From: Microcella frigidaquae
Lineage (GTDB): Bacteria > Actinomycetota > Actinomycetes > Actinomycetales > Microbacteriaceae
Direction of reading: 5' to 3'
NCBI RefSeq assembly: GCF_014200395.1
Contig: NZ_JACHBS010000001.1
Coordinates: 1,550,001 to 1,614,000 of the forward strand
DNA: 64,000 bases
The notes under the pieces were generated by a model. The model worked only from the letters and a program-made list of their open reading frames with translations, ran no database searches and was not told the DNA's origin. Both the position numbers and the translations under genes were made by a program. Shown one piece after another: positions 34,219 to 57,110 of the stretch (positions are counted from its first letter, which is position 1; the number at the start of each line of letters is the position of its first letter).

Positions 34219-34689
34219 TCATCCTTCTGGCGCGTCGGTGCGTCGGGTGGGGTGTCGCCGGACCGCGGTGACGACGAGGACAATCGCCAGCGCCAGGGCC
34301 AGGACGAACAGGGTCGCGATGAACCAGAGAAAGTCCGAGCCGATGAGGATGTTGCTGAGGACGAAGCGTCCGAACGCGACGAGCACACCGGCCGCCGTCC
34401 CGAGGTAGAGCCACAGTGTCCGGCGCGAGAGCAGGGTGATGCCGATACCCAGCAGCAGGATCCCGAAGCCGGCGATGAAGCCGCCCCAGGTGGCGAAGAC
34501 GATTCCGAGCCAGTCCAGGAACGCCGGGGGCAACGTGGTCGGGTCGATGCCGGTGTGCCGGATGTCCTCGGGCAGCAGCGTGGGACGCAGGAACAGGAAG
34601 TACCCGCCGACGCCGAGCGCAAGGGCGCCGAGCACGGTGGTGAGGACACCGCTCAGCATGTCCTTGCGGACAACTTCTCGTGTTTGCAT
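34219..34689 (-). CDS. Four-helix membrane protein, unknown
   Basis: 156 aa with four hydrophobic segments (LSGVLTTVLGALALGVGGYF, WGGFIAGFGILLLGIGITLL, LWLYLGTAAGVLVAFGRFVL, FIATLFVLALALAIVLVVTA). ATG 34689 (MQTREVV) chosen because GAGAAGGG ends 9 nt upstream; the in-frame ATG at 34698 is directly next to that SD. Divergent from the CsoR operator at 34751-34770, so it may be copper-responsive. No family recognised. Confidence 0.65.
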   Translation of the reverse strand: MQTREVVRKDMLSGVLTTVLGALALGVGGYFLFLRPTLLPEDIRHTGIDPTTLPPAFLDWLGIVFATWGGFIAGFGILLLGIGITLLSRRTLWLYLGTAAGVLVAFGRFVLSNILIGSDFLWFIATLFVLALALAIVLVVTAVRRHPTRRTDAPEG

Positions 34690-34750
34690 CAGGGACATCC
34701 CTTCTCGCCGGTCCTGGGGTTCGCCTCGTGACGGACCGCCGACCTGAACC

Positions 34751-34770
34751 GTATACCCTATGGGGGTATA
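34751..34770. promoter_or_regulatory. CsoR-type copper operator 1
   Basis: GTATACCCTATGGGGGTATA matches the CsoR operator form TATACCC(N)GGGTATA. A -10-like TATATT overlaps its right edge (34767-34772). Lies between the 4-helix membrane protein (minus) and ackA (plus). Confidence 0.75.
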
Positions 34771-34844
34771 TTCTCACCGAGACGGTGTCTGGCCTTCGGC
34801 AACTGTCGCATACCCCGCATGCGGGCGGGCATCATGGAGATCGG

Positions 34845-34978
34845 CCCGAGCCGCTGGGCAGGCTCGGGGTAGCAGGACGGGTTCAGAGCCGGTCGAGGAT
34901 GAACTCCGCGCGCCCGTCCGGCCACGACTGCTCGGCAGGCCTGTCGCCCAGCACCACCGGCGGCCGGTGCTGGGCGAC
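34845..34978 (+). other. ackA upstream region with two hairpins and a possible gene remnant
   Basis: No intact gene is visible between 34699 and 35023. CCCGAGCC (34845-34852) pairs with 34861-34868. GTCGCCCAGCACC (34943-34955) pairs perfectly over 13 bp with 34966-34978 around a 10-nt loop. On the minus strand 35018-34883 could encode the last 45 residues of a lost protein ending in EFILDRL, like the end of the P-loop NTPase gene (YILDRLLPAG). Leader or attenuator roles are inference. Confidence 0.4.
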
Positions 34979-35023
34979 ATAGAATCCGACGACGATGACA
35001 ACGACGCTCTCTGAACTCCGCGG

Positions 35024-36145
35024 ATGACGGTCGTCCTGGTGCTGAACGCGGGTTCCTCCTCGTTGAAGTGGAGGCTGATCGACAGTGTCTCCGAGATACC
35101 GGTTCGGGGCGGGATCGTGGAGCGGCTCGGCCACGACCGTGGCGACGGGCAGGAGCACGAGGCGGCGATCCGCGACGTGCTGGCCGAACTGGGTCAGGAC
35201 CGCATTGCCGTCATCGGGCACCGGGTGGTGCGCGGCGGCAGCCGGTTCGAGTCGGCGACGGTGATCACCGATCAGGTCGAGCAGCAGATAGCGGAGCTCG
35301 CGGTGCTTGCGCCGTTGCACAACCCGGTCAACCTCGCTGGCATCCGCGCCGCGCGGAGCACGTTCGGAGGCGTCCCGAATGTCGCGGTGTTCGATACCGC
35401 GTTCCATCGCACGCTGCCCGCGGCCGCCGCCTCGTACGCGCTTCCGGCGGATCTCGTTCAGCGGCATGCGCTGCGCCGATACGGATTCCACGGCATCTCC
35501 TACCAGTTCGTCTCCGCGCGGGCCGCGGAGATGCTCGGCCGCCCGCTCTCGCAGCTGCGCCTGATCGTCTTCCATCTGGGCAATGGCGCGTCGGCGTGCG
35601 CGATCGCTGGCGGCCGTTCGGTGGACACCTCGATGGGCATGACACCGCTGCCGGGCCTGGTGATGGGCACGCGGGCGGGCGACCTGGACCCGGGGGTGCT
35701 GATCGCGCTGGGCCGCAGCGGCCTCGGATGGGACCAGCTCGAAACCATACTGACCCGCGAGAGCGGTCTGCGCGCCTTGGCGGGGACCGAGGACATGCGC
35801 GACGTGCATGCCGCAGCGGCCGGCGGCGATCCGGCCGCAGCCGGGGCGCTCGAGGTCTACCACCACCGGCTGCGCCACTATCTCGGCGCCTACCTCGCCC
35901 AGCTCGGCGGCGCGGACGCGATTGTGTTCACCGGCGGAGTCGGCGAGCACGCCGCTGCGACCCGCGCGGCGGCCGTCGAGGGGATGGAGCGTCTCGGCAT
36001 CCGCATGGACGCTGACCGCAACGCGGAGGCCGCCGACCATGCCCGGACCGTCTCCGACGTCGACTCGCCGATCGCCGTCCTGGTCGTTCCGACCGACGAG
36101 GAGCTCGAGATCGCCCGGCAGTCCCTCGCCGCGCTCTCGGCCTAG
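35024..36145 (+). CDS. ackA: Acetate kinase
   Basis: 373 aa. Acetyl-phosphate + ADP to acetate + ATP. N-terminal LNAGSSSLKW, VFHLGNGASACAI, TRAGDLDPGVL and FTGGVGEHAA are all typical ASKHA acetate kinase motifs. ATG 35024. It can drain the acetyl-phosphate made by the phosphoketolase 7 kb downstream. Its last 4 bp overlap the 3' end of the opposing NTPase gene. A CsoR operator lies about 250 bp upstream, so copper control is possible. Confidence 0.95.
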   Translation: MTVVLVLNAGSSSLKWRLIDSVSEIPVRGGIVERLGHDRGDGQEHEAAIRDVLAELGQDRIAVIGHRVVRGGSRFESATVITDQVEQQIAELAVLAPLHNPVNLAGIRAARSTFGGVPNVAVFDTAFHRTLPAAAASYALPADLVQRHALRRYGFHGISYQFVSARAAEMLGRPLSQLRLIVFHLGNGASACAIAGGRSVDTSMGMTPLPGLVMGTRAGDLDPGVLIALGRSGLGWDQLETILTRESGLRALAGTEDMRDVHAAAAGGDPAAAGALEVYHHRLRHYLGAYLAQLGGADAIVFTGGVGEHAAATRAAAVEGMERLGIRMDADRNAEAADHARTVSDVDSPIAVLVVPTDEELEIARQSLAALSA

Positions 36146-36675
36146 CCGGCAGGCAGCAGGCGGTCGAGGATGTACTGGACGCGCTCCGCGGCGGGCAGTA
36201 CCGGGACCGGCACGACCGGGAACGGCAGCGCTTCATACACCTCGGTGAGCAGCTGGTGGATGCGCTGCTGGGCGGCGGTGTCCTCGGTGCGGGCGTAGTC
36301 GGGTGCCAGGGGCAGCAGGTCGAGGATGAACGTTCCGCGGTAGTTCACCTGCTCGAGGGCGGTGATCAGGATCGGGTCGGGTTCGAGGTCGAGGAAGCGG
36401 TAGTAGGCCAGGGAGTCGGGGACGGCCCGGTCCAGGAACACGGTCGCGTCGGGATCGAGGGCGGCTTCCTCGGCGAGCTGCATGTCCAGCACGCCGCGCT
36501 GGAACTGGCGCTGCTTGGCGCGGACCTCCTCTACGGTGCGCCCGGCGATGCGCTGGAGGTCGAGGTAGTGGCGGGCGTGCTCGATCGTCGTGGTGTAGCC
36601 GCGGTCGCGCAGCAGGTTGACGGTGGTGGTCTTGCCCGAGCTGGGGCCGCCGGTGATGACGTACCAGTTGGTCAT
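36142..36675 (-). CDS. Small P-loop NTPase (AAA_28 type)
   Basis: 177 aa. Walker A ITGGPSSGKTT at residues 7-17; Walker B-like ATVFLDRAVPD about residue 78. Similar folds are found in nucleotide or cofactor kinases such as the NadR kinase domain; substrate unknown. SD GAAAGGG just upstream of ATG 36675. Convergent with ackA by 4 bp; its promoter region faces the csoR operator. Confidence 0.75.
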   Translation of the reverse strand: MTNWYVITGGPSSGKTTTVNLLRDRGYTTTIEHARHYLDLQRIAGRTVEEVRAKQRQFQRGVLDMQLAEEAALDPDATVFLDRAVPDSLAYYRFLDLEPDPILITALEQVNYRGTFILDLLPLAPDYARTEDTAAQQRIHQLLTEVYEALPFPVVPVPVLPAAERVQYILDRLLPAG

Positions 36676-36727
36676 GTTCGCCCTTTCGATCCGCAGGACT
36701 CCGGAATACTCCGCCGCCGAAGTACTC

Positions 36728-36747
36728 TATACCCCTAGAGGGTATAC
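36728..36747. promoter_or_regulatory. CsoR-type copper operator 2
   Basis: TATACCCCTAGAGGGTATAC lies 24 bp before the csoR ATG and 53 bp from the divergent NTPase start. Both arms match operator 1, so one regulator probably controls both sites. Confidence 0.8.
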
Positions 36748-36770
36748 GATGGGGGTTGGAGGTGGTCGGG

Positions 36771-37055
36771 ATGGCGCACGGATATGTCGATGACAAGCAG
36801 GCGCTGCTGGCGCGGTTGCGTCGGGCGGAGGGGCAGGTGCGCGGGATCGCGCGGATGGTCGATGAGGACGTGTACTGCATCGACATCCTCACCCAGGTCT
36901 CCGCGGCGACCAAGGCGCTGGAGTCGGTCGCGCTGACGCTGCTGGAGGATCACCTCGCGCACTGCGTCGCGCAGGCGACCGCGCAGGGCGGCCCGATCGC
37001 GCAGGAGAAGCTGCGCGAGGCGAACGCCGCGATCGCGCGCCTCGTGCGCTCCTGA
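36771..37055 (+). CDS. csoR: Copper-sensing transcriptional repressor CsoR
   Basis: 94 aa. All-helical DUF156 family. ARLRRAEGQVRGIARMVDED is the DNA-contact region; Cu(I) ligands are the Cys in VYCIDILTQ and His/Cys in HLAHC (HxxxC), giving the C-H-C fingerprint of copper CsoR rather than the RcnR or FrmR type. ATG 36771 chosen for GGAGG 8 nt upstream; the frame also allows a TTG at 36756. First gene of the copper array and probably self-regulated. Confidence 0.9.
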   Translation: MAHGYVDDKQALLARLRRAEGQVRGIARMVDEDVYCIDILTQVSAATKALESVALTLLEDHLAHCVAQATAQGGPIAQEKLREANAAIARLVRS

Positions 37056-37103
37056 AACGTTCACACCACCCACATTCGACAAGGCTCGTGAAGGGAGCAC
37101 ATC

Positions 37104-37451
37104 ATGACCGGACAGGGATTCCAGGACCTCGGACTGCAGGCCACCAACGGCGGCGGGTGCGCGTGTTGCAGCCCCACCTCCCACGCCACCGCAGCCCCGG
37201 CGACTGCGGCGGCTGAGTCGGCGGCGGGTGATGTCACAGCGCAGTTCCTGGTGGAGGGGATGACCTGCTCGCACTGCGTGCGCAGCGTCACCGAGGAGGT
37301 TTCGGCGATCGACGGCGTCTCCGACGTCGCGGTCGACCTGCACGCCGGCGGCGTCTCGACGGTGACCGTGTCCAGCACGGTGCCGGTGGACGCGGCGCGG
37401 GTGCGGGAGGCGGTCGAGGAGGCCGGCTACAGCCTCGCCGGCGCATCATGA
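37104..37451 (+). CDS. Heavy-metal-associated (CopZ-like) copper chaperone
   Basis: 115 aa. An N-terminal Cys cluster [12 protein letters not shown] may bind metal. Residues 45-112 are a HMA ferredoxin-like domain with [11 protein letters not shown] (CxxC) and the conserved EEAGYSLAG end. Delivers Cu(I) to the neighbouring ATPase. The stop overlaps the copA ATG (ATGA). Confidence 0.9.
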
Positions 37452-39733
37452 GCACCACCACCTCGGATGTCGATCTGGACATCACCGGGATGACCTGCGC
37501 GTCGTGCGCGACGCGGGTGGAGCGCAAGCTGAACAAGCTGCCCGGGGTGGCGGCGACGGTCAACTTCGCCACCGAGAAGGCCCGCGTGCACGCCGACTCG
37601 CCGGTGGCGGTGGCGGAGCTGATCGCGGCGGTCGAGCAGGCCGGGTACGGGGCATCCGTCCCCGCCCCGCCCGCCGACACCCCCGATGAGAAGACCGCGC
37701 CGCAGGATGCGGAGCTGGTGTCGCTGCGGCAGCGGCTGATCGTCTCGGCCGCGCTGGCGGTGCCGGTGGCGGTGCTGTCGATGATCCCGGCGCTGCAGTT
37801 CACCTACTGGCAGTGGCTGACCCTGACCCTCGCCGCCCCGGTGGTGGTGTGGGGGGCGTGGCCGTTCCACCGGGCCGCGGCGATCAACGCCCGCCACGGG
37901 GCGGCGACGATGGACACCCTGATCAGCGTGGGCGTGCTGGCCGCGTTCGGCTGGTCGCTGTATGCGCTGTTCTTCGGCGGGGCGGGCATGCCGGGGATGC
38001 GGATGAGCGTCACCTTCGTCGGCACCCCGCAGGCCGGCGGCCACGAGGTGTATCTGGAGGTCGCCGCGCTGGTGACCGTGTTCATCCTGCTCGGCCGCTA
38101 CCTGGAGATCCGCGCGAAGCGGCAATCTGGCGAGGCACTGCGCGCGCTGCTGGAGCTCGGCGCGAAAGACGCCGTCGTCCTGCGCACAGGGCTCGAGCAG
38201 CGCATCCCCGTCGCCCAGCTGACCCCCGGCGACATCGTCGTGGTGCGCCCCGGCGAGAAGATCCCCGCCGACGGCGTCGTCACCGAGGGCGTCTCGGCGG
38301 TGGACGAGTCGATGCTCACCGGCGAGTCCGTCCCGGTCGAGGTCGGCCCCGGCTCCCGAGTGGTGGGCGCGACCGTGAACACCGGCGGCCGCCTGCTGGT
38401 GGAGCTCACCCGCGTCGGCGCCGACACGGAGCTGGCCCGGATGGCCAGGCTGGTGGAGGAGGCGCAGACCGGCAAGGCGCAGGTGCAACGCCTGGCCGAC
38501 CGGGTCTCGGCGATCTTCGTGCCCATCGTGATCGGCCTCGCGGTGGCCGCGTTCATCGTGTGGCTGCTCGTCGGTGCCGGCCCGGAGGTCGCGTTCACCG
38601 CCGCGGTGACCACGCTGATCATCGCCTGCCCGTGCGCGCTGGGCCTGGCGACCCCGACCGCGCTGCTGGTCGGCACCGGCCGTGGCGCGCAGCTGGGCAT
38701 CCTGATCCGCGGACCCCAGGTGCTGGAGCAGACCCGCCGCATCGACACCGTCGTGCTGGACAAGACCGGCACCATCACCGCCGGCACCATGACCGTCACT
38801 GCCACCCACCCCGCCGCAGGGACCGACGAGGCCGAGCTGGTGCGAGTCGCCGCGGCGCTCGAGCACGGCTCCGAGCACCCCATCGGCCGCGCCATCACCG
38901 CCGCCGCACCCGACCCGCTCGACCCGGTCGAATCGTTCCAGGCGGCGGCCGGGCAGGGCGTGCAGGGCATCGTCGACGGCCGCATGGTCGCCGCCGGCCG
39001 CGCCACCTGGATCACCACCCAATGGGCGCTCCCGATCCCCACCGACCTCGCAGACACCATCACCGCGGACGAGGCGTCCGGGGCGACGGTGACCGTGGTG
39101 GCGTGGGACGGGCAGGTGCGCGGGGCGATCAGCGTCGCCGACACCATCAAACCCACCAGCGGCGAGGCGATCGCCCGGCTGCGGGACCTCGGGCTGACCC
39201 CGATCCTGCTCACCGGCGACAACCCCGGTGCCGCGAAAGCGATCGCCGACCAGGCCGGCATCGAGGACGTCCGCGCCGGGGTCACCCCGGCCGGCAAGCT
39301 CGACACCATCCGGGAGCTGCAGTCCGCGGGCCGGGTGGTCGCGATGGTCGGCGACGGCGTGAACGACGCCGCCGCGCTCGCCGCCGCCGATTTGGGGATC
39401 GCGATGGGCACCGGCACCGACGCGGCCATCACCGCCGCCGACCTGACCATCGTCTCCGGCGACCTGCTGCTCGTGCCCGACGCGATCCGGCTCGCCCGCC
39501 GCACCCTGGGCACGATCAAAGGCAACCTGTTCTGGGCGTTCGCGTACAACGTCGCCGCGATCCCGGTCGCGATGCTCGCCCTGCTCAACCCCATCCTCGC
39601 CGCAGCGGCGATGGCGTTCAGCAGCGTGTTCGTCGTCACCAACAGCCTCCGACTGCGCCGCTTCCGCCCCCTGCCCACCCCGACACCCGGCACGGCCCCG
39701 GCCGCCCGGGAGCCGGCCCCGATCAGGGCCTGA
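37448..39733 (+). CDS. copA: Copper-exporting P1B-ATPase CopA
   Basis: 761 aa. One N-terminal HMA domain ([11 protein letters not shown], Cys17/Cys20), eight transmembrane helices, actuator TGE (MLTGESVP), metal motif [15 protein letters not shown] (CPC), phosphorylation motif DKTGTIT and hinge [11 protein letters not shown]. The late N and MxxSS residues of Cu(I) pumps follow ([17 protein letters not shown]). Exports Cu(I) across the membrane. Coupled to the chaperone gene. Confidence 0.95.
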
Positions 39734-39759
39734 CCCATCCCACGCGAAGGAGGATTGCC

Positions 39760-40050
39760 ATGTCCCACCACCACGATCACGCCGAGCACGACCACCCGCA
39801 TGACCACGGTCACGAGCCGGATCACGGCGCACACGATCACGGCGCACACGAGCATCACCATCACGAGCCGCCGGCGGGGGCGACGAACCTGGTGACCTGC
39901 CCGGTGATGCCCGGCAACCAGGTCGACCCGGCCTGGGCCGAGCAGCGCGGCCTGTTCCGCGACTACCAGGGCACCCGGTACTGGTTCTGCTGCGCCGAGT
40001 GCGGGCCGCTGTTCGACGCCGACCCCGCCCGCTACACCGACGCCGCCTAA
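39760..40050 (+). CDS. His-rich YHS-domain protein
   Basis: 96 aa. Residues 1-40 are almost all His, Asp, Glu and Gly (HHHDHAEHDHPHDHGHEPDH). The C-terminal YHS-like domain shows TCPVMPGNQVDPAW, WFCCAECGPLFDADPARYT. Likely a cytoplasmic metal-binding or buffering protein for copper or another soft metal. SD GGAGGA upstream. Located between copA and the PD-(D/E)XK-like gene. Confidence 0.8.
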   Translation: MSHHHDHAEHDHPHDHGHEPDHGAHDHGAHEHHHHEPPAGATNLVTCPVMPGNQVDPAWAEQRGLFRDYQGTRYWFCCAECGPLFDADPARYTDAA

Positions 40051-40081
40051 CCCACGCCAGCGCACGCGAAAGGAGCACGGG

Positions 40082-40663
40082 ATGGAGACGGCGGTCGGAT
40101 TGGTGCAGGCCTACCTGCGCGTCAACGGCTACTTCACCGTCGCCGAATACCCCGTGCTGGACGCCACCGGCCCCGGCGGCCCGCGCACCGTCACCGACCT
40201 GGACATCCTCGCGATCCGCCTGCACCATGCCCCCGGCGACGACCCCGACCCGATGCTGGGCGCGCGGCCCGGCGTGCCGGACATGATCGTCGGCGAGGTC
40301 AAGGAAGGCACCCCGAAACTGAACCCGGCGATGCGCGACCCGGCGGTGCTGGAGGCCGCGTTCGCCCGGTTCGGCTGCTGCGCCCCCGCCGACGCACCAG
40401 CGCTCGTGCAGGAACTGCTCACGGTCGGGCAGGTCACCGCCCCCGAGGGGCATCTGATCCGCACCGTCGCGTTCGGCAACACCGCTCACCCGAACAGGCC
40501 CGGCAACTGGCACATCGTCCCGCTGGAGCACATCCTCGACTACCTCCGTGAGCATCTCAGCCGCAACTGGGCCACGGTCGGCCGCACCCAGATCAAGGAC
40601 GACACCCTCGGGCTGCTCGCCCTGATCGAGAAGGCGCACCGCGCCGGGAACCGCGCCCGATGA
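40082..40663 (+). CDS. Unknown protein with PD-(D/E)XK-like nuclease pattern
   Basis: 193 aa. TDLDILAIRL followed by DMIVGEVKEG gives the D...ExK arrangement of the PD-(D/E)XK fold (about residues 38-80). After it a mostly helical part includes one Cys pair (FGCCAPADAP). It is not a known restriction enzyme and no methylase is nearby. SD AAAGGAG upstream; the copper-array position suggests induction with it. The role is unknown. Confidence 0.55.
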   Translation: METAVGLVQAYLRVNGYFTVAEYPVLDATGPGGPRTVTDLDILAIRLHHAPGDDPDPMLGARPGVPDMIVGEVKEGTPKLNPAMRDPAVLEAAFARFGCCAPADAPALVQELLTVGQVTAPEGHLIRTVAFGNTAHPNRPGNWHIVPLEHILDYLREHLSRNWATVGRTQIKDDTLGLLALIEKAHRAGNRAR

Positions 40664-40824
40664 GCCCGCTGCAGCGCTCCCGTCCCGGTCCGGGACTTTC
40701 GCCTGTGACACGGCATCGGCCGGGTGGGCAGACTGGGCGGGAGCGTTCGAGGGTCGGCGCGGCGGACGACGCCTGGGAGGCTGCTGAGCGGGGAGGTACC
40801 CTGGAGGTGGGAAGGAGGTCGGCC

Positions 40825-41301
40825 GTGAACCACATCCGAGCCCTGGTGCATGCCCCATCCGGGCTGCACCGGCTGCTGCTGACTTTCGCGACCGCCTTCC
40901 TGCTGATCGCGGGCCTGCTGGCCATGCACACTCTCACCGGCACGCTCACCCTCGGGCACACCGACACCCCCGCCGCAGCCAGTGAGGGCACCGGCCACGG
41001 CACCGAATCCGCGATGGCTTCGGCCATCGCACCAGCGGCGGTCCTCGGCGCTGACCCGGGCATGGTCACGGATGCCTCCGCCGACCATTGTCCGGGGGAC
41101 TGCGGCGATGCCGGCGGGATGCCGGATCACTCGATGCTGATGATGGCGTGCGTGCTTGCGCTGCTGGCCGCCGTCATCGTGCTGCTGGCCCGCCTCGGCG
41201 CCGCGCTGGCGCTGCTGCGCCTGCACGGCCGGAACGTGTTGGCTGCGCTACCGCACCCACGACCACCCTCTCTTATCGTCCTGTCCATCAGTCGAACCTG
41301 A
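40825..41301 (+). CDS. DUF6153-like membrane protein
   Basis: 158 aa. Two hydrophobic segments (LLLTFATAFLLIAGLLAMHTL and MLMMACVLALLAAVIVLLARL) flank an exported His/Met/Cys-bearing loop with DHCPGDCGDAGGMPDHSM. Resembles the DUF6153 family, which accompanies DUF305 genes in Actinobacteria. GTG start with SD AAGGAGGTC. A longer in-frame reading from 40660 has no RBS. Copper or redox role is inference. Confidence 0.6.
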   Translation: MNHIRALVHAPSGLHRLLLTFATAFLLIAGLLAMHTLTGTLTLGHTDTPAAASEGTGHGTESAMASAIAPAAVLGADPGMVTDASADHCPGDCGDAGGMPDHSMLMMACVLALLAAVIVLLARLGAALALLRLHGRNVLAALPHPRPPSLIVLSISRT

Positions 41302-41413
41302 TTCCCTGCGCTCCCGGCACGATCACCGCACCGGGACGACGCTTCACTCTGCCCACCATGCGGCAGCAGGAATCCGCTGACCACCGTTCGACTGACAGAC
41401 AAGGTCCCTTACC

Positions 41414-42040
41414 ATGCGTTTCCGTACTCTCGCGCTCACGGCCGGCGCCCTGGCCGCGGCGCTCGTGCTCGTCGGCTGCGCCCCCACCGGCGGCTCCATG
41501 CCCGGCATGGACCACGGCCCCGGCGGCATGACCAGCAGCACACCCGAACCCACCGACGACGCGGCGTTCAACGCCGCGGACGAGATGTTCGTCACGATGA
41601 TGATCCCGCACCACGAGCAGGCCATCCAGATGGCCGATCAGATCCTCGCCAAGGACGGCATCGATGAGCGGGTCGTGGCCCTCGCTCAGCAGATCAAGGC
41701 CGCCCAGGACCCCGAGATCCAGACCATGAAGGGCTGGCTGCAGGACTGGGGCATCCCCTACGACGACTCCATGTCCGGCATGGGCGGCATGGAGGGGATG
41801 GATCACGGCGACGGCATGATGTCCGACGACGACATGGCGGCCCTGGACGCTGCCACCGGTGTCGAGGCGACCCGCCTGTTCCTGGAGGGCATGATCACCC
41901 ACCACCAGGGTGCCGTCACGATGGCGCAGATGGTGCTGGACAACGGGCAGAACCCGGATGTCGCCGCCCTGGCGCAGCAGATCATCGACGGACAGACCGC
42001 CGAGATTACCACCATGCAGGACATCCTCGCCACCCTCTGA
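41414..42040 (+). CDS. DUF305 lipoprotein (putative copper-binding)
   Basis: 208 aa. Lipoprotein signal with Cys22 (LVGC). Two DUF305 repeats: MFVTMMIPHHEQAIQMAD and RLFLEGMITHHQGAVTMAQ, each with HH-x-A/E motifs, plus Met/His-rich loops (GGMEGMDHGDGMM). Such proteins (CopM type) bind copper outside the cytoplasm. Probably buffers Cu(I)/Cu(II) at the membrane. Confidence 0.9.
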   Translation: MRFRTLALTAGALAAALVLVGCAPTGGSMPGMDHGPGGMTSSTPEPTDDAAFNAADEMFVTMMIPHHEQAIQMADQILAKDGIDERVVALAQQIKAAQDPEIQTMKGWLQDWGIPYDDSMSGMGGMEGMDHGDGMMSDDDMAALDAATGVEATRLFLEGMITHHQGAVTMAQMVLDNGQNPDVAALAQQIIDGQTAEITTMQDILATL

Positions 42041-42156
42041 CCCCGGACCCCTCGGACGGCGCCGACCCCCTGGACCGGCTCCGTCCGAGGCCCGGCGACC
42101 CGCCCGACGCGCCGCTGGGCACAGCGAACGCGGTCGACCCGTCGAAAGGCCCCGTC

Positions 42157-42255
42157 ATGACTTCCCGCACACTCGCCGCCTGTTTCGTGGCCATCTTCCT
42201 CGCCCTGGTCATCCTGTCCACGGCGACCATCCTCCTCATCCAGGCGACCGCATGA
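42157..42255 (+). CDS. 32-aa single-pass membrane peptide
   Basis: The frame MTSRTLAACFVAIFLALVIL continues hydrophobic to the end of a 32-residue peptide with one Cys. A weak SD (GAAAGG) lies 8 nt upstream, and its TGA overlaps the ATG of the next lipoprotein gene (ATGA), which supports real translation. Could be a small pump partner or a leader for coupling. No family known. Confidence 0.5.
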   Translation: MTSRTLAACFVAIFLALVILSTATILLIQATA

Positions 42256-43115
42256 ACCCCGCACGCACGATCACGACACTGACCGTCGCCGCCGCGGCGG
42301 CGCTACTCCTGACCGGCTGCACCAGCCCGGCCCTTCCCGCGCCCACGGCCGCGGCGCCGACGCTGCGGGACTTCGGCCATGTGCACGGCATCGTCGACGC
42401 CGGCGACGGCACCGTCCTGCTGGGCACCCACACCGGGCTCTACACGCTCACCGAGGACGGCACCGCCACCGGGCCGGTCGGCGGCGCCGACTTCGACGCG
42501 ATGAGCCTGACCGGCGCCGGCGACACGCTGTACGCCTCCGGGCATCCGGGGCCGGACACGCCCGCGGAGCTCGGCGCCCCGAACCTGGGCATCATCCGCA
42601 GCACCGACGCGGGGCTCTCCTGGGAGCCGGTCGCGTTCACCGGGCTGGAGGACTTCCATGTCCTGACCGCGACCGCCGACGGCACCCTGCACGGGGTCGG
42701 ATCCAGTTCGATCACCGTGCGCACCAGCACGGATCGCGGCGTGACCTGGAGCGCCGGCGCCGAGCTCGCCCCCAACGACCTGGCCGGCGCCGCTGACGGT
42801 TCGCTGTATGCCACGACGCAGGACGGACTGCAGCGCAGTGAGGACGGCGGCGTGACCTTCACCCCGGTGGCGGACGCACCGCTGCTGTACCTGGTGGAGG
42901 CCGACCTAGGCGGCGGCCTCGTCGGCGTCGATACCGACGGCACGCTCTGGGCCTTCGACGGCACCACGTGGGAGCGCTTCGGGGCCGTCGCCGGCACGGT
43001 GCAGGCGCTCGGGGTCAGCAGCGACGGCGCGGTCGTGCTCGTCGACGACCGCGGCGTCGTCTGGGTTCGCGGCGCCGAGGCCACCGTCGTGCTCCCGACC
43101 GAGGCGACATCATGA
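42252..43115 (+). CDS. Lipoprotein of the F510_1955 glycosylhydrolase-like family
   Basis: 287 aa. Lipobox LTGC (Cys23). Beta-propeller-like repeats with BNR/sortilin features: [31 protein letters not shown] and [15 protein letters not shown]. Family name is by resemblance; the true substrate is unknown. It occurs widely beside DUF305 and copper genes. Ends with an ATGA overlap to a tiny 18-codon frame (43112-43168) whose stop in turn overlaps the phosphoketolase ATG. Confidence 0.75.
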
Positions 43116-43164
43116 CCACCACGCCGGGCAACCGCACCGCACACCAACCCTCAGGAGCACAACC

Positions 43165-48167: not shown

Positions 48168-48186
48168 CCGGACGCGAGGCGCCGCG

Positions 48187-51100
48187 ATGACTCCGCGGTC
48201 GGCAGAGCGCGGGACTCACCACCTCGATGCCGTCTACGACGCGGTGCTGTTCGACATGGACGGCGTGGTCACGAACACCGCCGCGATCCATGCCGCCGCG
48301 TGGAAGCAGCTGTTCGACGAGGTGCTGCGAGACCCGCGTGTGCAGGTGGACGACCCCGAGACGACCTTCGACCCGGTCGCCGACTACCGCCGCTATGTGG
48401 ATGGGCGAACCCGCGAGGACGGGGTATCGGCGTACCTGACGGCCCGTGGGATCGCCCTGGATGCCGGAGATCCCGGAGACCCACCAACGGCGTGGACGAT
48501 CGCGGGGCTCGCGGCGCGCAAGAACGAGCTGTTCCTGGCGGAGCTGGGCACCCGCGGGCTGCGCGTCTATCCGGGCACCGTGGCGCTGCTGCATCGCCTG
48601 CGGAGCGCGGCCGTTCCGGTCGGGCTGGTCACCGCGAGCCGGAACGCGCAGCAGATGCTCGCCGCCGCAGGACTGGCCGGCTGCTTCGACACCGTGGTGG
48701 ACGGCCGGATCGCGCTCTCGCATCACCTGAAAGGCAAGCCGGATCCCGCCATGTTCGTCGAGGCAGCCCGGCGACTGGGTGTCGCTGCGGCCCGCACCGC
48801 GGTCGTCGAGGACTCGGTCGCCGGCGTGGCGGCCGGGAGGCGCGGAGGGTTCGGCTTCGTCGTCGGCATCGACCGCGCCGGAGCGCGGGAGCAGCTCGAG
48901 GCCGCGGGCGCCGACCTCGTCCTGGCCGATGTCGCCGAGCTCGACCTGGGCGTCTCCACCACGGATCCGTGGCGGCTGGTCTACGATGGCTTCGACCCCG
49001 CGCACGAAGGGCACCGGGAGGCGCTCACCGCGCTGGGCAACGGCTACCTGGCCACCCGGGGCGCCCGGCCCGAGCACCACGACGACGGCATCCACTATCC
49101 CGGCACCTACCTCGCGGGGGTGTACAACCGGCTGGCGAGCACCATCCACGGGCGCGAGCTCGAGGAGGAGCATCTCGTCAACACTCCCAACTGGCTTCCG
49201 GTGGACCTCCGCCTCGGAGACGGGCCGTGGCTGTCCACCGGCCAGGTCGTGACGCACAGCGAACGACGCGAGCTCGACCTGCGCCGCGGCCTGGTCGTCC
49301 GCCGCGCGGTCCTCACCGGTCCGAACGGGGATCGACTCGACTTCGTGCAGACGACGTTCACCTCCCTGGACGAGCCTCACCTGGCCGTGCTGGAAACCAC
49401 GCTCACCGCCCCCGACTGGAGCGGCACGGTCACCCTCCGCGCCGGGATCGACGCCGGGGTGCGCAACAGCAACGTGGCCGCGTATCTCGGATCGGACGCC
49501 ACCCACCTCACGCAGCCGACGTTCCGCCAGGTCGGCGACACCACCCTCTGCGAGGTGTGGACCCGGCAGAGCCGGGTCCACATCGCCACCGCCGTCCGCT
49601 CGACCCTCACCGGAACCGACGGCGCGACCGATCACCGCATCGACACGCCATCGCCGCACACCCGGGAGCTGCGCATCCCTCTGGAGCAGGGTCGACCGGT
49701 CACCCTCACCAAGACGGCCGCGATCTACACCTCCCACGATCGGGCCATCAGCGAGCCGGGTGGTGCCGCCCTGACCCTGCTCACCGTACGCGGTGGCGAC
49801 GTCGAGGCGCTGCGGGAACGCCACGCGGCGGCGTGGCGGCGACTCTGGGAACGCTTCGCGGTCACCCTGGACGCCGACACGCACAGCCGACTCATCCTGA
49901 ACCTGCACGTCTTCCACCTGCTCCAGACCCTCTCGCCGCACACCGTCGAGCTCGACGCCGGGGTGCCCGCCCGCGGCCTGCACGGCGAGGGGTATCGGGG
50001 GCACGTCTTCTGGGACGAGGTGTTCGTCCTGCCCGTGATCGCTCTGCGCACGCCCGAGATCAGCCGGGCGCTGATCGACTACCGCTGGCGGCGACTGGAC
50101 GCCGCCCGCGCCGCGGCGACCGCCGCCGGACTCCGCGGAGCCCTCTTCCCCTGGCAGAGCGGCAGCGACGGTCGCGAGGAGACGCCCGAGGCGCTCTACA
50201 ACCCGCGCTCCGGTCGGTGGATGCCGGACAACTCCTACCGTCAACGCCACGTCGGCCTCGCCATCGCCTACAACGCCTGGCAGCACTACCAGGCCACCGG
50301 CGACCTCGAGTGGCTCGCCGAACGCGGCGGCGAGCTCATCATCGAGGTCACCCGCCTGTTCGCCTCGCTCGCCGAGCACGACAGCGCCACCGACCGCTTC
50401 CACATCGCCGGGGTGATGGGACCCGACGAGTTCCATGACGGCGCCGCGGACTCTCCCGGCAGCGGCCTGCGCGACAACACGTACACCAACGTCCTCGTCT
50501 CGTGGGTCGCCACGAGAGCGGCCCAGACACTCGCCCTGCTCAACGGGCACAGCGGCGAGATCCTCCGCGACCGGCTCCGCGTCACCGACGAGGAGGTCGA
50601 GGGATGGGCCCGGCTCAGCACACGACTGGCGGTGGGGTTCCACCGCGACGGCATCCTCACCCAGTTCGACGGCTATGAGAGCCTGCGGGAGCTGGACTGG
50701 GACCACTACCGCGAGGAGTACGGGAACATCGGCCGGCTCGATCTCATCCTCGAGTCCGAGAACGACAGCACCAACCGGTACAAGCTCGCCAAGCAGCCCG
50801 ACGTCGTCATGCTGGTCTACCTGCTCGGTCACGACGGGCTCCGGGCGCAGCTCGCCACGCTCGGCTACCCGTTCTCCGAGCAGGACCTGACCCGCACGGT
50901 CGAGTACTACCTCGCGCGCACCGCCAACGGGTCGACGCTCAGCCGAGTCGTGAACGCCTCCGTCCTGGCCGGCATCGACCCGTCCCGCTCCTGGATCGCG
51001 TTCCGCGAGGCGCTGATCGCCGATCTCGACGACTCCCAGGGCGGCACCACCCGCGAAGGGATCCACCTCGGCGCGATGGCCGGCACCATCGACCTGCCCG

Positions 51101-51392
51101 TCCGCTCCTTCGCCGGCATGGCCCTCGGTGACGACGAGCTCGTCTTCGCCCCCCGACTGCCGCCGAACCTCACCCGGGTCGGGTTCCAGATCCGATACCG
51201 CGGCCACCTCGTCGACGTGATGCTCCGTGACCGCAGCCTGGAGCTTCGCGTGCACGCCGGCTCAGCACCCGCGATCCACGTGCGCGTCGGCGCGGTCGCC
51301 GTGCCGATCTCGGCCGGACAGACCAAGACGTTCGCGATCGGCCCGGGCACCTCGGCCCGCGACGCGACCAACCGCGGAGGAGGCCTCGACTG

Positions 51393-51393
<1 letters not shown>
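48187..51393 (+). CDS. HAD beta-phosphoglucomutase fused to glycoside hydrolase family 65
   Basis: 1068 aa. Residues 15-255 are a HAD domain (AVLFDMDGVVTN, Asp23/Asp25; GKPDPAMFVEAARRLG; VVEDSVAGVAAGRRGGF). Residues 270-1060 are GH65: NGYLATRGARPEHH, GHVFWDEVFVLPVIAL, MGPDEFHDGA (catalytic Glu region) and ESENDSTNRYKLAKQPDVVM. GH65 enzymes split trehalose, kojibiose or related disaccharides with phosphate to beta-glucose-1-P, and the HAD part would turn this into glucose-6-P. Feeds sugar into the phosphoketolase path. The stop overlaps the next ATG (TGATG). Confidence 0.92.
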
Positions 51394-53039
<1,646 letters not shown>

Positions 53040-53077
53040 CCGCCGCGGCTCCCATCCCTCATCAGAAAGGCACGCAC

Positions 53078-54136
53078 ATGAACACCATTCGAGTCGGCGT
53101 CAACGGCTACGGCGTCATCGGCAAGCGCGTCGCCGACGCGGTCCTGCTGCAGTCGGACATGGACCTGGTCGGCGTCGCGGACATCGCCACCGACTGGCGG
53201 ATCAAGTCCGCAGCGAACCGCCTGCCCGTGTTCGCCTCCACCATCGAGGCGCAGCAGGCCATGCGGGGCGCCGACGTGCCCGCACAGGGAGTGCTCGACG
53301 ACCTTCTCGCGCAGTGCGACGTCGTCGTCGACACCACCCCCAAGGATGTGGCAGCGGGAAACCTGGAGCGCTACCGCGCCCTCGGCGTCAAGGCAGTGCT
53401 CCAAGGGGGCGAGTCCCACTCCACCACCGGCCACTCCTTCGTCGCCCAAGCCAACTACGCCAGCGCCATCGGCAGGGACAGCACCCGGGTGGTCTCCTGC
53501 AACACCACCAGCATCGTGCGGATCCTCGGCGCGCTGGATGCGGCCGGACTCCTGCTGCGCGCCCGCGGGGTGCTCATCCGCCGCGCCACCGACCCGTGGG
53601 AATCGCACCTCGGCGGGATCATGAACACGATGGTCCCAGAACCGACCATCCCCTCTCATCAGGGCCCCGACGCACAGACCGTGCTCCCCGGACTCGATGT
53701 CGTCACCATCGCCGCCAAAGGCGCCCACACGCAGACCCACAGCCACTACTGGACGCTGCAACTGACCCGGGAGGCGACCCGCGACGAGGTGCTGGACGCC
53801 CTGCGCGCCGCGCCCCGCATCGCGTTCATCCGGATGTCCGACGGCCTGGTCGCCCTCAACTCCACCGTCGAGCTGATGCGCGATCTCGGCCGCCCCCGGG
53901 GAGACATGTGGGAGGTCGCCGTGTGGGAGGACCTGGTCACCGTGAACGGCAGCGAGGCCTACCTCGCCTACCAGGTCTACAACGAGGCCATCGTCGTGCC
54001 CGAGACGATCGACGCGATCCGCGCGCTGACGGGCACCGTCCCCGACGCCGCGACCTCGATCCGCCTCACCGACGAGAGCCTCGGCATGCGCCAGGACTTC
54101 CTCACACCGGCGGAGGAGCCCGACCATGACCGGTGA
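53078..54136 (+). CDS. Type II (archaeal-type) glyceraldehyde-3-phosphate dehydrogenase
   Basis: 352 aa. NAD(P)-binding VGVNGYGVIGKRVADAV, LQGGESHSTTGHSFVAQANY and the catalytic Cys in VVSCNTTSIVRIL (about residue 140). The length and these segments match type II GAPDH of Archaea, not the usual bacterial GapA. SD AGAAAGG upstream of ATG 53078. Converts glyceraldehyde-3-P to 1,3-bisphosphoglycerate. Rare in bacteria, and placed here between copper and sugar genes. Confidence 0.9.
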   Translation: MNTIRVGVNGYGVIGKRVADAVLLQSDMDLVGVADIATDWRIKSAANRLPVFASTIEAQQAMRGADVPAQGVLDDLLAQCDVVVDTTPKDVAAGNLERYRALGVKAVLQGGESHSTTGHSFVAQANYASAIGRDSTRVVSCNTTSIVRILGALDAAGLLLRARGVLIRRATDPWESHLGGIMNTMVPEPTIPSHQGPDAQTVLPGLDVVTIAAKGAHTQTHSHYWTLQLTREATRDEVLDALRAAPRIAFIRMSDGLVALNSTVELMRDLGRPRGDMWEVAVWEDLVTVNGSEAYLAYQVYNEAIVVPETIDAIRALTGTVPDAATSIRLTDESLGMRQDFLTPAEEPDHDR

Positions 54137-54410
54137 CCACCAACCGCCCGCCGACCATCCCGGCGAAGGCGACCCGCGGCGACGGATGCCTGTGACGGCG
54201 TGGCTGATCATCGGGATCTCCGTGCTCGGGATCGCGATCTACCTGTTCATCGACCACCTTCCCCACGTCGTCGCAGTGCTGCCCTACGTCGCGATCATCG
54301 GCATGGCCGCCATGCACCTGTTCGGCCACCGCCACCACACCGGCGCCCACGACTCGAATCATCGACGCCACGGGGGCGACAGCGGGACCGACACGCGAGA
54401 GTCGTCGTGA
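54126..54410 (+). CDS. DUF2933-like small membrane protein
   Basis: 94 aa. Two hydrophobic segments (AWLIIGISVLGIAIYLFIDH and AVLPYVAIIGMAAMHLF) and a His-rich tail (GHRHHTGAHDSNHRRHGG). Matches the DUF2933 pattern often seen in copper-resistance clusters. Overlaps the end of the GAPDH gene by 11 bp and the next gene by GTGA. Confidence 0.7.
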   Translation: MTGDHQPPADHPGEGDPRRRMPVTAWLIIGISVLGIAIYLFIDHLPHVVAVLPYVAIIGMAAMHLFGHRHHTGAHDSNHRRHGGDSGTDTRESS

Positions 54411-55426
54411 ACACCGTCGTCCGCCCCCTCGCGGACGCCAGCCGGCACGGGCACCCCCGACCGCTGCGGATGCTGTGGGTCACGCTCGCCTGGGGGTCGT
54501 GCTTCGTCGCGATCACCGTCGGCCTGCAAGACGCCCCGCCGCTGTGGCTCGCGGCACTGCGAGCCCTCATCGCCGGGGTCGCGCTCGCAACCGTCGCCGG
54601 CATCCAGCGGGCACCTCTTCCCCGCGACCCGAAGACATGGGCACTGATCGGCTGCCTCGGACTGGTGAACATCGCCCTGGCATTCGCGACGATGTTCGTC
54701 GCCGCCACCGGACTGTCGACCGGGATTGCCTCGGTGCTCGCCAACGCGCAGCCAATCCTGATCCTGCTGCCCGCGTGGTGGCTCTACCGCGAGCGTCCCA
54801 CCCCGGCCGCGATCGCCGCGATCGGCCTGGGCTTCACCGGCCTACTCATCATCGTCCTTCCCTCCGGGCTCGGCACCGGAGCGTGGCTCTCACTGACCTC
54901 CGCCGCCGCGATCACCGCAGGCACCCTCATCGGACGGATCGTGCACGCAGACGTCCGAATCGTGGCGGCAGCTCAGCTGCTCATCGGAGGTGCGATCCTC
55001 GCCGGCACCGCAGCCGTCACAGAAGGGCCGCCCACGATCGACTGGAACATCCAGTTCATCCTCACCCTGCTGTTCCTATCACTGGTCGGCACCGCCGCCA
55101 CCACGGTCGCCTGGTTCACCGAGATCGGACGTGCCCGGCTCGACCTCCTCGCCGCGTGGACGCTGCTCGTGCCGGTCTTCGCTACCCTGCTGTCGCTGCT
55201 GATCCTGCGCGAGGACCCGGGCCTGTGGGGCTGGATCGGGACCGTGATCGTGCTGATCGCAATGGCGTTGCTCGCCATCGGATCCAGGCGCTCAGAGCCC
55301 TCGGCCGTCACGGCAACCGGCAATCGTGCCCCACGAGCCTCCGCCGATCATGCGACGTCCGACCCGGACGGCCTCCCTGACGAAAACCACGGCCCGCGCT
55401 CCCGGCCGGAAAGGAAACAACGATGA
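54407..55426 (+). CDS. EamA/DMT-family transporter
   Basis: 339 aa with ten hydrophobic segments in two EamA repeats (MLWVTLAWGSCFVAITVGL, LANAQPILILLPAWWLYRER and FILTLLFLSLVGTAATTVAW, LVPVFATLLSLLILREDP). Exports a metabolite or a drug; substrate not predictable. GTG start coupled to the DUF2933-like gene; the stop overlaps the multicopper oxidase ATG (ATGA). The C-terminal 40 residues are polar. Confidence 0.88.
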   Translation: MNTVVRPLADASRHGHPRPLRMLWVTLAWGSCFVAITVGLQDAPPLWLAALRALIAGVALATVAGIQRAPLPRDPKTWALIGCLGLVNIALAFATMFVAATGLSTGIASVLANAQPILILLPAWWLYRERPTPAAIAAIGLGFTGLLIIVLPSGLGTGAWLSLTSAAAITAGTLIGRIVHADVRIVAAAQLLIGGAILAGTAAVTEGPPTIDWNIQFILTLLFLSLVGTAATTVAWFTEIGRARLDLLAAWTLLVPVFATLLSLLILREDPGLWGWIGTVIVLIAMALLAIGSRRSEPSAVTATGNRAPRASADHATSDPDGLPDENHGPRSRPERKQR

Positions 55427-56946
55427 ACCCGTCGCCCGCCCCACGCCCCCGCTTCCTCCTAACTCGGCGAGGGTTCCTCGGCGTCAGCATTGGCGCCGTC
55501 GCGACGGTCGCGCTGGCATCCTGCGCGCCGGCGGCGAACTGGGTGCAGCCCGACGGCGCCCAGGTCCAAGGCGCCGAGCGGCGCCGCGGCGGCACCGGGA
55601 AGGTCACCACCGCGACCCTCACCGCCGCCCCGACCGTGCTGGACCTAGCCGGGGCGACCGCGCCGACCTGGGCGTTCGGGTCTGTTCCGGCGCCCGTGAT
55701 CCGTCTCGGCGCCGGAGACACTCTGAAGGCCACCGTCCGGAACCAGCTCGAGGCGGACACCTCCGTGCACTGGCACGGGCTCGCGCTGCGCAACGACATG
55801 GACGGCGTCCCGCCGGTCACCCAGCAGCCCATCAAGGCCGGGGCCAGTTTCGACTACGAGTTCATCGCGCCCGATCCCGGCACCTACTGGTTCCACCCCC
55901 ACGTCGGCGTGCAGCTGGACCGTGGCCTGTACGGGGCGCTGATCGTCGAGGACCCCGCCGAGCCCGGCGGGTACGAGGACGAGTGGGTCATCATCCTCGA
56001 CGACTGGCTCGACGGCGTCACCGCCACCCCCGACGACGTCCTTGACGAGCTGTCCGCCGGGATGGGCGACATGGGCGGGATGGGCGACATGTTCATGCGG
56101 ATGGGCAACACCCTCATGGGCGCCACCTCCGACCTGCTCGGCGGCGACGCCGGCGACGTCTACTATCCCCTCTACCTCGTCAACGGGAAGCCCCCCGCCG
56201 ACCCGACCCAGTTCACCGGGCGGGCCGGCGAGAAGGTGCGGCTGCGGATCATCAACGTCGGCAGCGACACCGCGTTCCGCCTCGCCATCGGCGGTCACAC
56301 GCTCACCATCACCCATACCGACGGATTCCCCGTGGAACCGGTCGAAGTCGACAGCATCCTCATCGGCATGGGCGAACGCTACGACGCGATCATCACCCTG
56401 GATGACGGCGCGTTCCCCCTCATCGCTCAGGCCGAGGGCAAACGCGATCGCGGTTTCGCCGTCATCCGCACCGGCAGCACCGCGGCAGCACCGACGGCCG
56501 ATGTGAGCATCCCGGAGCTCACTAGCAGCCGGATCGGGACCGCACGGCTACTGACGGCAGAAAGCAGCGTTGCGCTGTCCCCACGGCAGCCTGATCGGAC
56601 CGTGGCGATCACTCTCACCGGAGATATGGCCGACTACGACTGGGGCATCGACGGGCGACGGTTTGACATGAATCAGCCCCTCGACGGCGCGCACGAGATC
56701 CGCGAAGGCGAACGCGTCCGGTTCACGATCACTAACGACACCGCGATGTGGCACCCATTCCATCTACACGGTCACACCTACCAGCACGAAGGCGGCGGCC
56801 CGCGGAAAGACACCTCGATCATCCTGCCCAAGCAGACCCTCACCGTCGACTTCGACGCTGACAACCCAGGCCTCTGGGTCGCCCACTGCCACAACATCTA
56901 CCACGCCGAGTCCGGCATGACGACGGTCATCGGATACCGGCAGTGA
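55423..56946 (+). CDS. Multicopper oxidase (Tat-exported lipoprotein)
   Basis: 507 aa. Twin-arginine signal TRRGFLGVSIGAV (Arg15-16) with a lipobox ending at Cys34 (ALASC). All four copper motifs are present: SVHWHGLALR, YWFHPHVGV, WHPFHLHGHTY and VAHCHNIYHAESGM. Oxidises Cu(I) to the less toxic Cu(II) outside the cell, as in CueO-like systems. Last member of the copper array. Confidence 0.93.
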   Translation: MNPSPAPRPRFLLTRRGFLGVSIGAVATVALASCAPAANWVQPDGAQVQGAERRRGGTGKVTTATLTAAPTVLDLAGATAPTWAFGSVPAPVIRLGAGDTLKATVRNQLEADTSVHWHGLALRNDMDGVPPVTQQPIKAGASFDYEFIAPDPGTYWFHPHVGVQLDRGLYGALIVEDPAEPGGYEDEWVIILDDWLDGVTATPDDVLDELSAGMGDMGGMGDMFMRMGNTLMGATSDLLGGDAGDVYYPLYLVNGKPPADPTQFTGRAGEKVRLRIINVGSDTAFRLAIGGHTLTITHTDGFPVEPVEVDSILIGMGERYDAIITLDDGAFPLIAQAEGKRDRGFAVIRTGSTAAAPTADVSIPELTSSRIGTARLLTAESSVALSPRQPDRTVAITLTGDMADYDWGIDGRRFDMNQPLDGAHEIREGERVRFTITNDTAMWHPFHLHGHTYQHEGGGPRKDTSIILPKQTLTVDFDADNPGLWVAHCHNIYHAESGMTTVIGYRQ

Positions 56947-57110
56947 CCAGCGACGTGGAGAACGAAGGAAGGCTCGCGGTCGGTACCGACGATAGCTCCG
57001 GAACCCACATCGCCTATCACCAACCCATCATGATCCTCGACGAGTTCGACGCGGTCTGCGGTATCGCTGCGACGGTCCTGCCTCGACCGTACGAGGCGAC
57101 GCGATCTTGA
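56943..57110 (+). CDS. Possible 55-aa protein coupled to the multicopper oxidase
   Basis: GTG 56943 overlaps the oxidase TGA (GTGA). The frame MTSDVENEGRLAVGTDDSSG goes on to a 55-residue acidic protein ending YEATRS with no recognisable domain. Only the coupling supports it; it may equally be chance. Confidence 0.3.
   Translation: MTSDVENEGRLAVGTDDSSGTHIAYHQPIMILDEFDAVCGIAATVLPRPYEATRS

Follow-up and report, generated by a model that had tools for sequence, protein, structure and literature searches.

Why are genes for copper handling and genes for central carbon metabolism interleaved in one run of genes? The question is raised by an island in the actinobacterium Microcella frigidaquae, located in a 64,000-nucleotide stretch of DNA (the window: bases 1,550,001-1,614,000 of the complete 2.55-Mb genome; coordinates below are window positions). 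From csoR (36756) to a multicopper oxidase gene (end at 56946), 16 genes are arranged on one strand over approximately 20 kb, and within this run copper genes are intermixed with xfp (phosphoketolase), a beta-phosphoglucomutase/GH65 fusion gene and a gene for a type II, archaeal-type glyceraldehyde-3-phosphate dehydrogenase (GAPDH-II). We consider it probable that this is a mobile island for copper tolerance and that a backup pathway from sugar to ATP is also switched on through CsoR; the pathway would carry a second GAPDH because copper inhibits the ordinary enzyme, GapA, as shown in Staphylococcus aureus. The main evidence is that GAPDH-II is linked to copper genes far beyond chance, and that the link extends outside Actinobacteria. 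The link is strong and, as far as we could find, unreported: no published report connecting GAPDH-II or phosphoketolase with copper resistance was found in a search that left subscription journals mostly outside its reach.

GAPDH-II was used as the bait for a survey, so that loci were picked by a rare metabolic gene and not for copper. The best 80 of 286 relatives were kept, and the counts therefore lean towards window-like sequences. The resulting 105 loci include near-duplicates (L004-L007, L008-L011, L020/L021, L034/L035, L038/L098, L040/L099) and exclude two distant plasmid homologues (38% Bradyrhizobium, 32% Streptomyces scopuliridis; L163 and L164), which are found on plasmids, clustered with prs and with genes of the isocitrate/isopropylmalate dehydrogenase family; no copper genes are listed there, and both homologues probably have another function. 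The controls were the housekeeping gapA (type I) regions of the same genomes, one of which (G230) carries a gapA that scores below the model cut-off. A P1B-ATPase gene lies within approximately 10 kb in 19/19 actinobacterial GAPDH-II loci and in 0/20 gapA loci of the same genomes, and exact CsoR boxes (see below) were found in 13/19 and 0/20, respectively, the 19 loci having been hand-picked after their gene content had been seen; among all 45 actinobacterial GAPDH-II loci, 40 hold a P1B-ATPase gene and 22 an exact box. Outside Actinobacteria 20 genomes were searched, and two (L050 and L054, neither of which showed a P1B-ATPase) were dropped since no usable type I gapA was found in them; the remainder gave P1B-ATPases at 10/18 GAPDH-II loci versus 0/18 gapA loci. 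Among the 79 of 105 loci that are at least 15 kb long, a P1B-ATPase is present in 63 and some copper-type gene in 67, and among the 26 shorter loci the P1B-ATPase was detected in ten. A chance mixture of copper and metabolic genes was rejected as an account of the island: none of the 38 type I control regions holds any of the copper query genes.

In a draw of 198 genomes taken evenly from the order, five GAPDH-II loci other than that of the window all carry a copper-type gene, three of them a P1B-ATPase and two, on short contigs, a DUF305 or HMA gene alone. When the reading frames of 86 loci (77 after near-duplicates were collapsed, 12 loci being merged into four groups) were clustered, P1B-ATPases were the most frequent family after GAPDH-II itself (53/77), followed by EamA (33), GH65 (25), xfp (20), ABC1 (16), CsoR, the oxidase and a prolipoprotein transferase-like family (15 each) and DUF305 (14), with cluster names taken from query matches, from annotated regions or by eye. 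Thirty-seven plasmid records matched, and 12 of the 22 regions that were viewed with annotation list a heavy-metal or copper P-type ATPase, to which a motif search adds two unannotated plasmid ATPases (L157, L158). Copper-type ATPases were found near GAPDH-II in Actinomycetota, Chloroflexota, Deinococcota, Acidobacteriota, Omnitrophota, Thermodesulfobacteriota, Spirochaetota, Ignavibacteriota (7 kb from GAPDH-II) and Pseudomonadota, many of these labels resting on single contigs of metagenome-assembled genomes. A Planctomycete locus (L061) has a P1B-ATPase 9.5 kb from GAPDH-II with the motif CPC-ALVIS, which we take to be of the Zn/Cd type, and that phylum was therefore not counted.

An earlier note on this DNA, made from the letters alone, had asked whether xfp, the GH65 fusion, type II GAPDH, csoR and copA co-occur across Actinobacteria beyond chance. 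For GAPDH-II this is borne out strongly, by the control comparisons given above; for GH65 it applies mainly inside actinobacterial GAPDH-II loci (35/53); for xfp as such it was not shown. In the order as a whole xfp is present in 127/198 genomes, csoR in at least 178/198 and GAPDH-II in 6/198, so that most xfp genes lie outside such islands, and among the six GAPDH-II genomes xfp was seen (by eye) within approximately 20 kb only in that of the window and in G137. As a marker of copper islands, xfp alone was rejected on its frequency.

The operators are the second line of evidence. Exact matches to TACCC-N5-GGGTA, which we take to be the consensus of a CsoR-type operator, occur upstream of both ackA (34752-34770) and csoR (36728-36746), where the earlier note had placed two CsoR operators; these are the only matches in the window, and the genome holds five. 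Looser versions of the pattern are little or not enriched and mostly noise (with up to two mismatches, 12 in the window versus 8.4 expected; with up to one, 23 in the genome versus 15 for a reversed control pattern), and exact sites alone were therefore counted. Both operators are real and conserved, since they are kept in Microbacterium rhizomatis (L126) in DNA that is only 79-84% identical: there the island and its two operators are retained at 79-96% DNA identity, with exact boxes 5' of ackA (10524) and 5' of csoR (13481). By analogy with the family, CsoR would bind the two boxes. Its Cys/His/Cys triad, presumably the Cu(I) ligands, is kept in 23 of 28 CsoR rows, which include the window csoR twice, three entries for the second homologue in the genome (which lacks the triad) and two for a single Georgenia sequence. 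One of the other three exact boxes in the genome lies just 5' of that second csoR homologue; of the boxes at genome positions 1501825 and 1848774, one stands beside a copA/DUF305/copZ-like set (L103) and the other has no homologue of an island gene within 20 kb (L102).

One scan recorded 36 exact boxes, 31 of them in GAPDH-II loci and five in stretches of the M. frigidaquae genome that had been selected because they hold a box; no exact box turned up in any of five first-order Markov random sets. An exact box is found 5' of GAPDH-II in 22 of the 91 loci scanned. In three Tessaracoccus genomes it precedes GAPDH-II by 207-239 bp and in Serinicoccus by 513 bp, with no recognised gene between (L029, L031, L033 and L036, 207-513 bp); in two Demequina (L034/L035) csoR alone intervenes; and in Georgenia, Cellulomonas, Actinotalea and others a box is followed in turn by P1B-ATPase, csoR, GAPDH-II and CPD-motif ATPase, often with EamA or GH65 next. 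L013, in which the box lies by an opposite-strand csoR, and L015 are less clear. CsoR-type operators are thus located upstream of metabolic genes in other genera, and in some directly 5' of GAPDH-II. In Agrobacterium GAPDH-II sits between a CsoR homologue and cueR, together with a P1B-ATPase and with DUF305, DUF2933 and a Cus/Czc-type pump nearby, so that the copper context recurs with another regulator.

Family searches found every gene named in the earlier note at about the position given there, and added the ABC1/UbiB, EamA, F510_1955/BNR and DUF6153 genes and an adjoining MobF relaxase gene; the CPD motif of the second ATPase was read from its sequence. The features are as follows; several start codons were chosen among candidate starts, and assignments are by family search unless stated.

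34219..34698, minus strand: membrane protein of 159 amino acids without a family, transcribed away from ackA with the operator between them (membrane nature judged by eye)
34752..34770, no strand: CsoR-type operator, exact, TATACCC-N5-GGGTATA, between the divergent membrane gene and ackA
35024..36145, plus strand: ackA, acetate kinase; the genome has two
36142..36675, minus strand: AAA_28 ATPase/kinase
36728..36746, no strand: CsoR-type operator, exact, TATACCC-N5-GGGTATA, just 5' of csoR
36756..37055, plus strand: csoR, copper sensor (PF02583, 103 bits; Cys/His/Cys triad present)
37104..37451, plus strand: CopZ-like HMA copper chaperone (HMA model above its cut-off, CopZ models below theirs)
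37448..39733, plus strand: copA1, copper P1B-ATPase (CPC motif read in the translation)
39760..40050, plus strand: His-rich YHS-domain protein
40082..40663, plus strand: protein of 193 amino acids, no family
40660..41301, plus strand: DUF6153 protein
41414..42040, plus strand: DUF305/CopM-type copper protein
42252..43115, plus strand: F510_1955-family BNR-repeat protein (175.4 bits, cut-off 175)
43165..45624, plus strand: xfp, phosphoketolase; no other was found in the genome
45621..48167, plus strand: copA2, second P1B-ATPase, CPD motif, overlapping xfp by 4 bases
48187..51393, plus strand: beta-phosphoglucomutase-like HAD domain fused to a GH65 disaccharide phosphorylase-type enzyme
51393..53039, plus strand: ABC1/UbiB-family atypical kinase
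53081..54136, plus strand: phosphorylating GAPDH of type II (archaeal-type) that retains the catalytic Cys and the aligned HxH
54126..54410, plus strand: DUF2933 small protein
54470..55426, plus strand: EamA/DMT-family transporter
55423..56946, plus strand: multicopper oxidase, final gene of the run
57857..61579, plus strand: MobF-family conjugative relaxase/helicase adjoining the island (241 bits, cut-off 100)

The gaps between genes from csoR to the oxidase range from -11 to +211 bases, five overlaps being of 4 bases or more, and no terminator-like site was found in 36600-56599, where shuffled sequence gave a mean of 3.6. The mixed same-strand run described in the earlier note therefore stands from csoR to the oxidase and fails for ackA, which lies outside it, with a box of its own, behind the opposite-strand AAA_28 gene. 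In Leucobacter (L019) a homologue of the 193-amino-acid protein is found between the AAA_28 and csoR genes. The island contains the parts of a CsoR-type copper operon, namely a CsoR with the triad, a palindromic operator 5' of it, an HMA chaperone and a CPC-motif P1B-ATPase, and it resembles known CsoR-CopZ-CopA operons and islands also in DUF305 and the multicopper oxidase; it differs from them in that central-carbon genes share the gene run. In S. aureus the operons reported to respond to CsoR are copAZ and copBL only, and the authors regarded the change in metabolic enzymes as indirect (PMC10249872).

The fold of the GAPDH-II is settled by matches to solved archaeal enzymes (1cf2, 2czc, 2yyy, 1b7g), which it resembles in its full-length match, catalytic Cys and HxH. 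It matches the models NF003251 (426.7 bits, cut-off 185) and TIGR01546 (297.6 bits, cut-off 232.9) over their full length, and in the alignment with 1cf2 the cysteine in SCNTT and the downstream His are kept, residues to which we assign the usual active-site roles. Unlike the archaeal enzymes it is bacterial, accessory, carried on mobile elements and located beside copper pumps. The host genome also holds two type I GAPDH genes above cut-off, of which GAPDH-II is a remote relative (best type I chain, E 7e-5). The second active-site cysteine is missing: 91 of 93 GAPDH-II rows read SC[NT][TS], none of these with a Cys at +4, and NASCTTNC was found in 34 of the 38 type I regions. In total 81 of the 93 rows contain one or two cysteines. 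Retention of the catalytic Cys and HxH makes copper tolerance of GAPDH-II a prediction. In S. aureus copper binds and inhibits GapA in vitro and in cells, and a Cu(I) chelator reverses the effect (PMC6350627); copper is also reported in that species to block the pentose phosphate/PRPP (phosphoribosyl pyrophosphate) step, Prs (PRPP synthetase) being the other enzyme described as copper-blocked (PMC10249872). Prs and a thymidine phosphorylase family gene occur near GAPDH-II in L061, L086 and L156, that is in 3/105 loci versus 0/38 controls, too few to weigh.

In the proposed mechanism, CsoR would sit on the two operators and, as its family suggests, let go when loaded with Cu(I). Release would lead to synthesis of the metal handlers (CopZ, the CPC and CPD P1B-ATPases, DUF305, multicopper oxidase and YHS protein) and, from the same gene run, of the backup sugar-to-ATP route. 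The beta-phosphoglucomutase/GH65 enzyme would convert disaccharide and phosphate to glucose-6-phosphate with no ATP spent, phosphoketolase would produce acetyl phosphate, from which the island acetate kinase would make ATP, and the archaeal-type GAPDH would carry triose phosphate past the step at which copper stops GapA. The ATP would also feed the two ATP-driven pumps. Induction by copper, flux through the route and activity of GAPDH-II where GapA is poisoned are thus expected features of the island, and a function in copper survival is likely.

The sugar-to-ATP genes fit such a route. The phosphoketolase-acetate kinase bypass of the bifid shunt type is a known system, which the island resembles in having xfp and ackA together; it adds a disaccharide phosphorylase-type enzyme, a second GAPDH and CsoR-type operators. 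The N, central and C domains of GH65 are all present in the 48187-51393 protein. Its best solved relative is 9lb6, deposited as a trehalose-6-phosphate hydrolase (441 bits), with kojibiose phosphorylase 3wiq at 282 bits; the fused HAD domain, best matched by a solved beta-phosphoglucomutase (8h5s, 181 bits), suggests phosphorolysis. The sugar genes vary with lineage: beta-phosphoglucomutase/GH65 and xfp in Actinobacteria; alpha-glucan phosphorylase, phosphofructokinase and aldolase in Meiothermus; aldolase, GH65 and xfp in Corynebacterium; a 1-phosphofructokinase-family kinase in Methylocystis; alpha-glucan phosphorylase in Indioceanicola, Pseudorhizobium and Pontibacter; and in Roseovarius and Sulfitobacter the arginine deiminase pathway, which yields ATP, next to a CPD ATPase. 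The common theme looks like sugar phosphates without ATP cost plus a path to ATP, as expected of a backup ATP supply. The same theme also suits general energy stress, and that alternative, discussed below, keeps a real share for this reason.

The second ATPase, copA2, was considered as an ordinary CopA and rejected as such, since its metal motif is CPD and not the CPC of the P1B-1 (CopA) group; it has a His-rich N-terminal region and an HMA domain lacking CxxC. To our knowledge no substrate has been assigned to CPD-motif P1B-ATPases. The CPD type is the commonest ATPase beside GAPDH-II. In a GAPDH-II tree of 105 rows (104 loci, L100 being dropped as split, plus the window) the copper-type ATPase closest to GAPDH-II has a CPD motif in 50 rows including the window, CPH in 14 and CPC in nine; 32 rows have none, a class that includes short contigs. 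Type and side (upstream or downstream) of this ATPase require at least 30 changes on the tree, a figure taken with no comparison to shuffled labels, which looks like repeated re-association and not one frozen block. The CPD motif has been named a novel P1B-3 subtype on the basis of three Rhizobiales proteins, which likewise have CPD in place of CPC/CPH and, unlike copA2 with its many N-terminal histidines, have few (PMC5552934).

Several observations weigh against this copper-survival explanation. The window GAPDH-II lies 16 kb downstream of the csoR operator, so that actual co-transcription is uncertain. P1B-ATPases were identified by similarity and some may be Zn/Cd pumps; 16 of the 79 long loci have none, and no heavy-metal P-type ATPase is listed within 10 kb in the Acidovorax, Croceicoccus, Indioceanicola, Methylophaga, Phenylobacterium, Pontibacter, Pseudorhizobium and Mycolicibacterium regions. 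As it keeps the active-site Cys and aligned HxH, GAPDH-II may itself bind copper. The HAD domain scores 149.6 bits with TIGR02009 (beta-phosphoglucomutase subfamily), just below the cut-off of 153.35. The gene xfp is common without GAPDH-II, a Georgenia plasmid has xfp with ackA and no copper genes listed, and several proteobacterial islands resemble general energy-stress sets. Of the eight regions with no such ATPase listed, those of Pseudorhizobium and Mycolicibacterium do list a multicopper oxidase, and those of Indioceanicola and Methylophaga yielded a CPD motif. The copper-survival module put forward in the earlier note is accordingly supported by the GAPDH-II-copper link and by the CsoR-type operators before metabolic genes, and not by any such link for xfp.

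The island probably moves horizontally, and it shows signs of recent transfer. The segment 42985-56949 is 95.8-95.9% identical to four genomes (two Microbacterium, Agrococcus and Agromyces); near-identity stops at 56949, just past the oxidase gene, and its left end is the end of the compared stretch. The MobF relaxase adjoining the island on the right is a component of conjugative or mobilizable elements, and 26 of the 37 plasmids with a match are typed mobilizable or conjugative. GAPDH-II is an accessory gene, five of the six hits in the 198 genomes being above cut-off and one split, with none among the 13 same-family genomes listed in that draw. The genes at 29856-31633, which by eye look like integrase-core and Mutator-type transposase genes, could mark the left boundary. 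Elsewhere in the genome (G000:C1:1819286-1819696, locus L101) the minus strand holds part of a second GAPDH-II gene together with two fragments of GH65, apparently the remnant of another such island.

Of the alternatives, the one that survives best is a general emergency-energy module for low oxygen or respiratory block that shares mobile elements with copper genes; its components (GAPDH-II, xfp, ackA, UbiB and the phosphorylases for glycogen or disaccharides) would then help whenever respiration is lost, to copper or to another cause. We regard it as unlikely, yet the hypoxia or redox-stress module named in the earlier note does fit part of the proteobacterial plasmid islands: there are GAPDH-II islands with the arginine deiminase pathway, one with pyruvate:ferredoxin oxidoreductase and a universal stress protein, one with enolase, phosphoenolpyruvate synthase and a CBS protein, and one with glycogen phosphorylase, phosphoglucomutase and GlgX, and in Acidovorax, where no P1B-ATPase is listed, acetate kinase and UbiB are accompanied by a distant xfp-like gene (27% identity; its annotation is xylulose 5-phosphate 3-epimerase). 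On the other hand, universal stress or CBS proteins occur in 10 of the 79 long loci versus 67 with copper-type genes, and copper-type genes occur without them in 58 loci versus one the reverse, the stress search having used five queries that may miss members and the copper set including MerR-type cueR hits. Neither the DosR nor the FNR palindrome, in simple form, was matched in the window island, and the operators seen are CsoR boxes.

Passive hitch-hiking, in which GAPDH-II and the sugar genes ride metal-resistance plasmids with no relation to copper, is a weaker candidate still, and we think it improbable. The adjoining relaxase, the near-identical copies in three named genera, the mobilizable or conjugative plasmids and mercuric reductase homologues in 9/105 loci are all as it would predict, and the control regions, being housekeeping loci, are not enough on their own to rule out an effect of shared plasmids; against it stand the repeated changes of ATPase type and side on the GAPDH-II tree and the boxes directly before GAPDH-II in some genomes. 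A detoxification pair of GAPDH-II and EamA, modelled on the GAPDH found with ArsJ in arsenic operons, in which the transporter exports a toxic-ion adduct or metabolite formed by the enzyme, is very improbable even with EamA homologues in 45/105 GAPDH-II loci versus 0/38 controls, because copper is no phosphate analogue and the known ArsJ chemistry is not transferable, EamA was not found in over half of the loci, and the xfp and GH65 partners are left unexplained.

Beyond the copper-survival explanation of this one island, a broader statement is possible, which we offer tentatively as somewhat short of an even chance: isozyme replacement may be a widespread form of mobile copper resistance, in which approximately nine phyla keep a copper-tolerant archaeal-type GAPDH beside their pumps, under CsoR in Actinobacteria and perhaps under CsoR/CueR elsewhere, and so restart glycolytic ATP production at the copper-poisoned step. 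This bears on how much of copper toxicity stems from stopping glycolysis. A mobile set pairing copper pumps with a second, different GAPDH would be an evolutionary answer to that question: the GAPDH step is apparently one that selection favours replacing. The island makes possible a direct test of GAPDH-II versus GapA under Cu(I), and would give a role to a class of bacterial enzymes that is annotated but, as far as we found, unexplained. Finally, a gene for a CtaG-CopD fusion, a copper-related membrane protein, is located at 24003-26090, approximately 8-9 kb to the left of the island.

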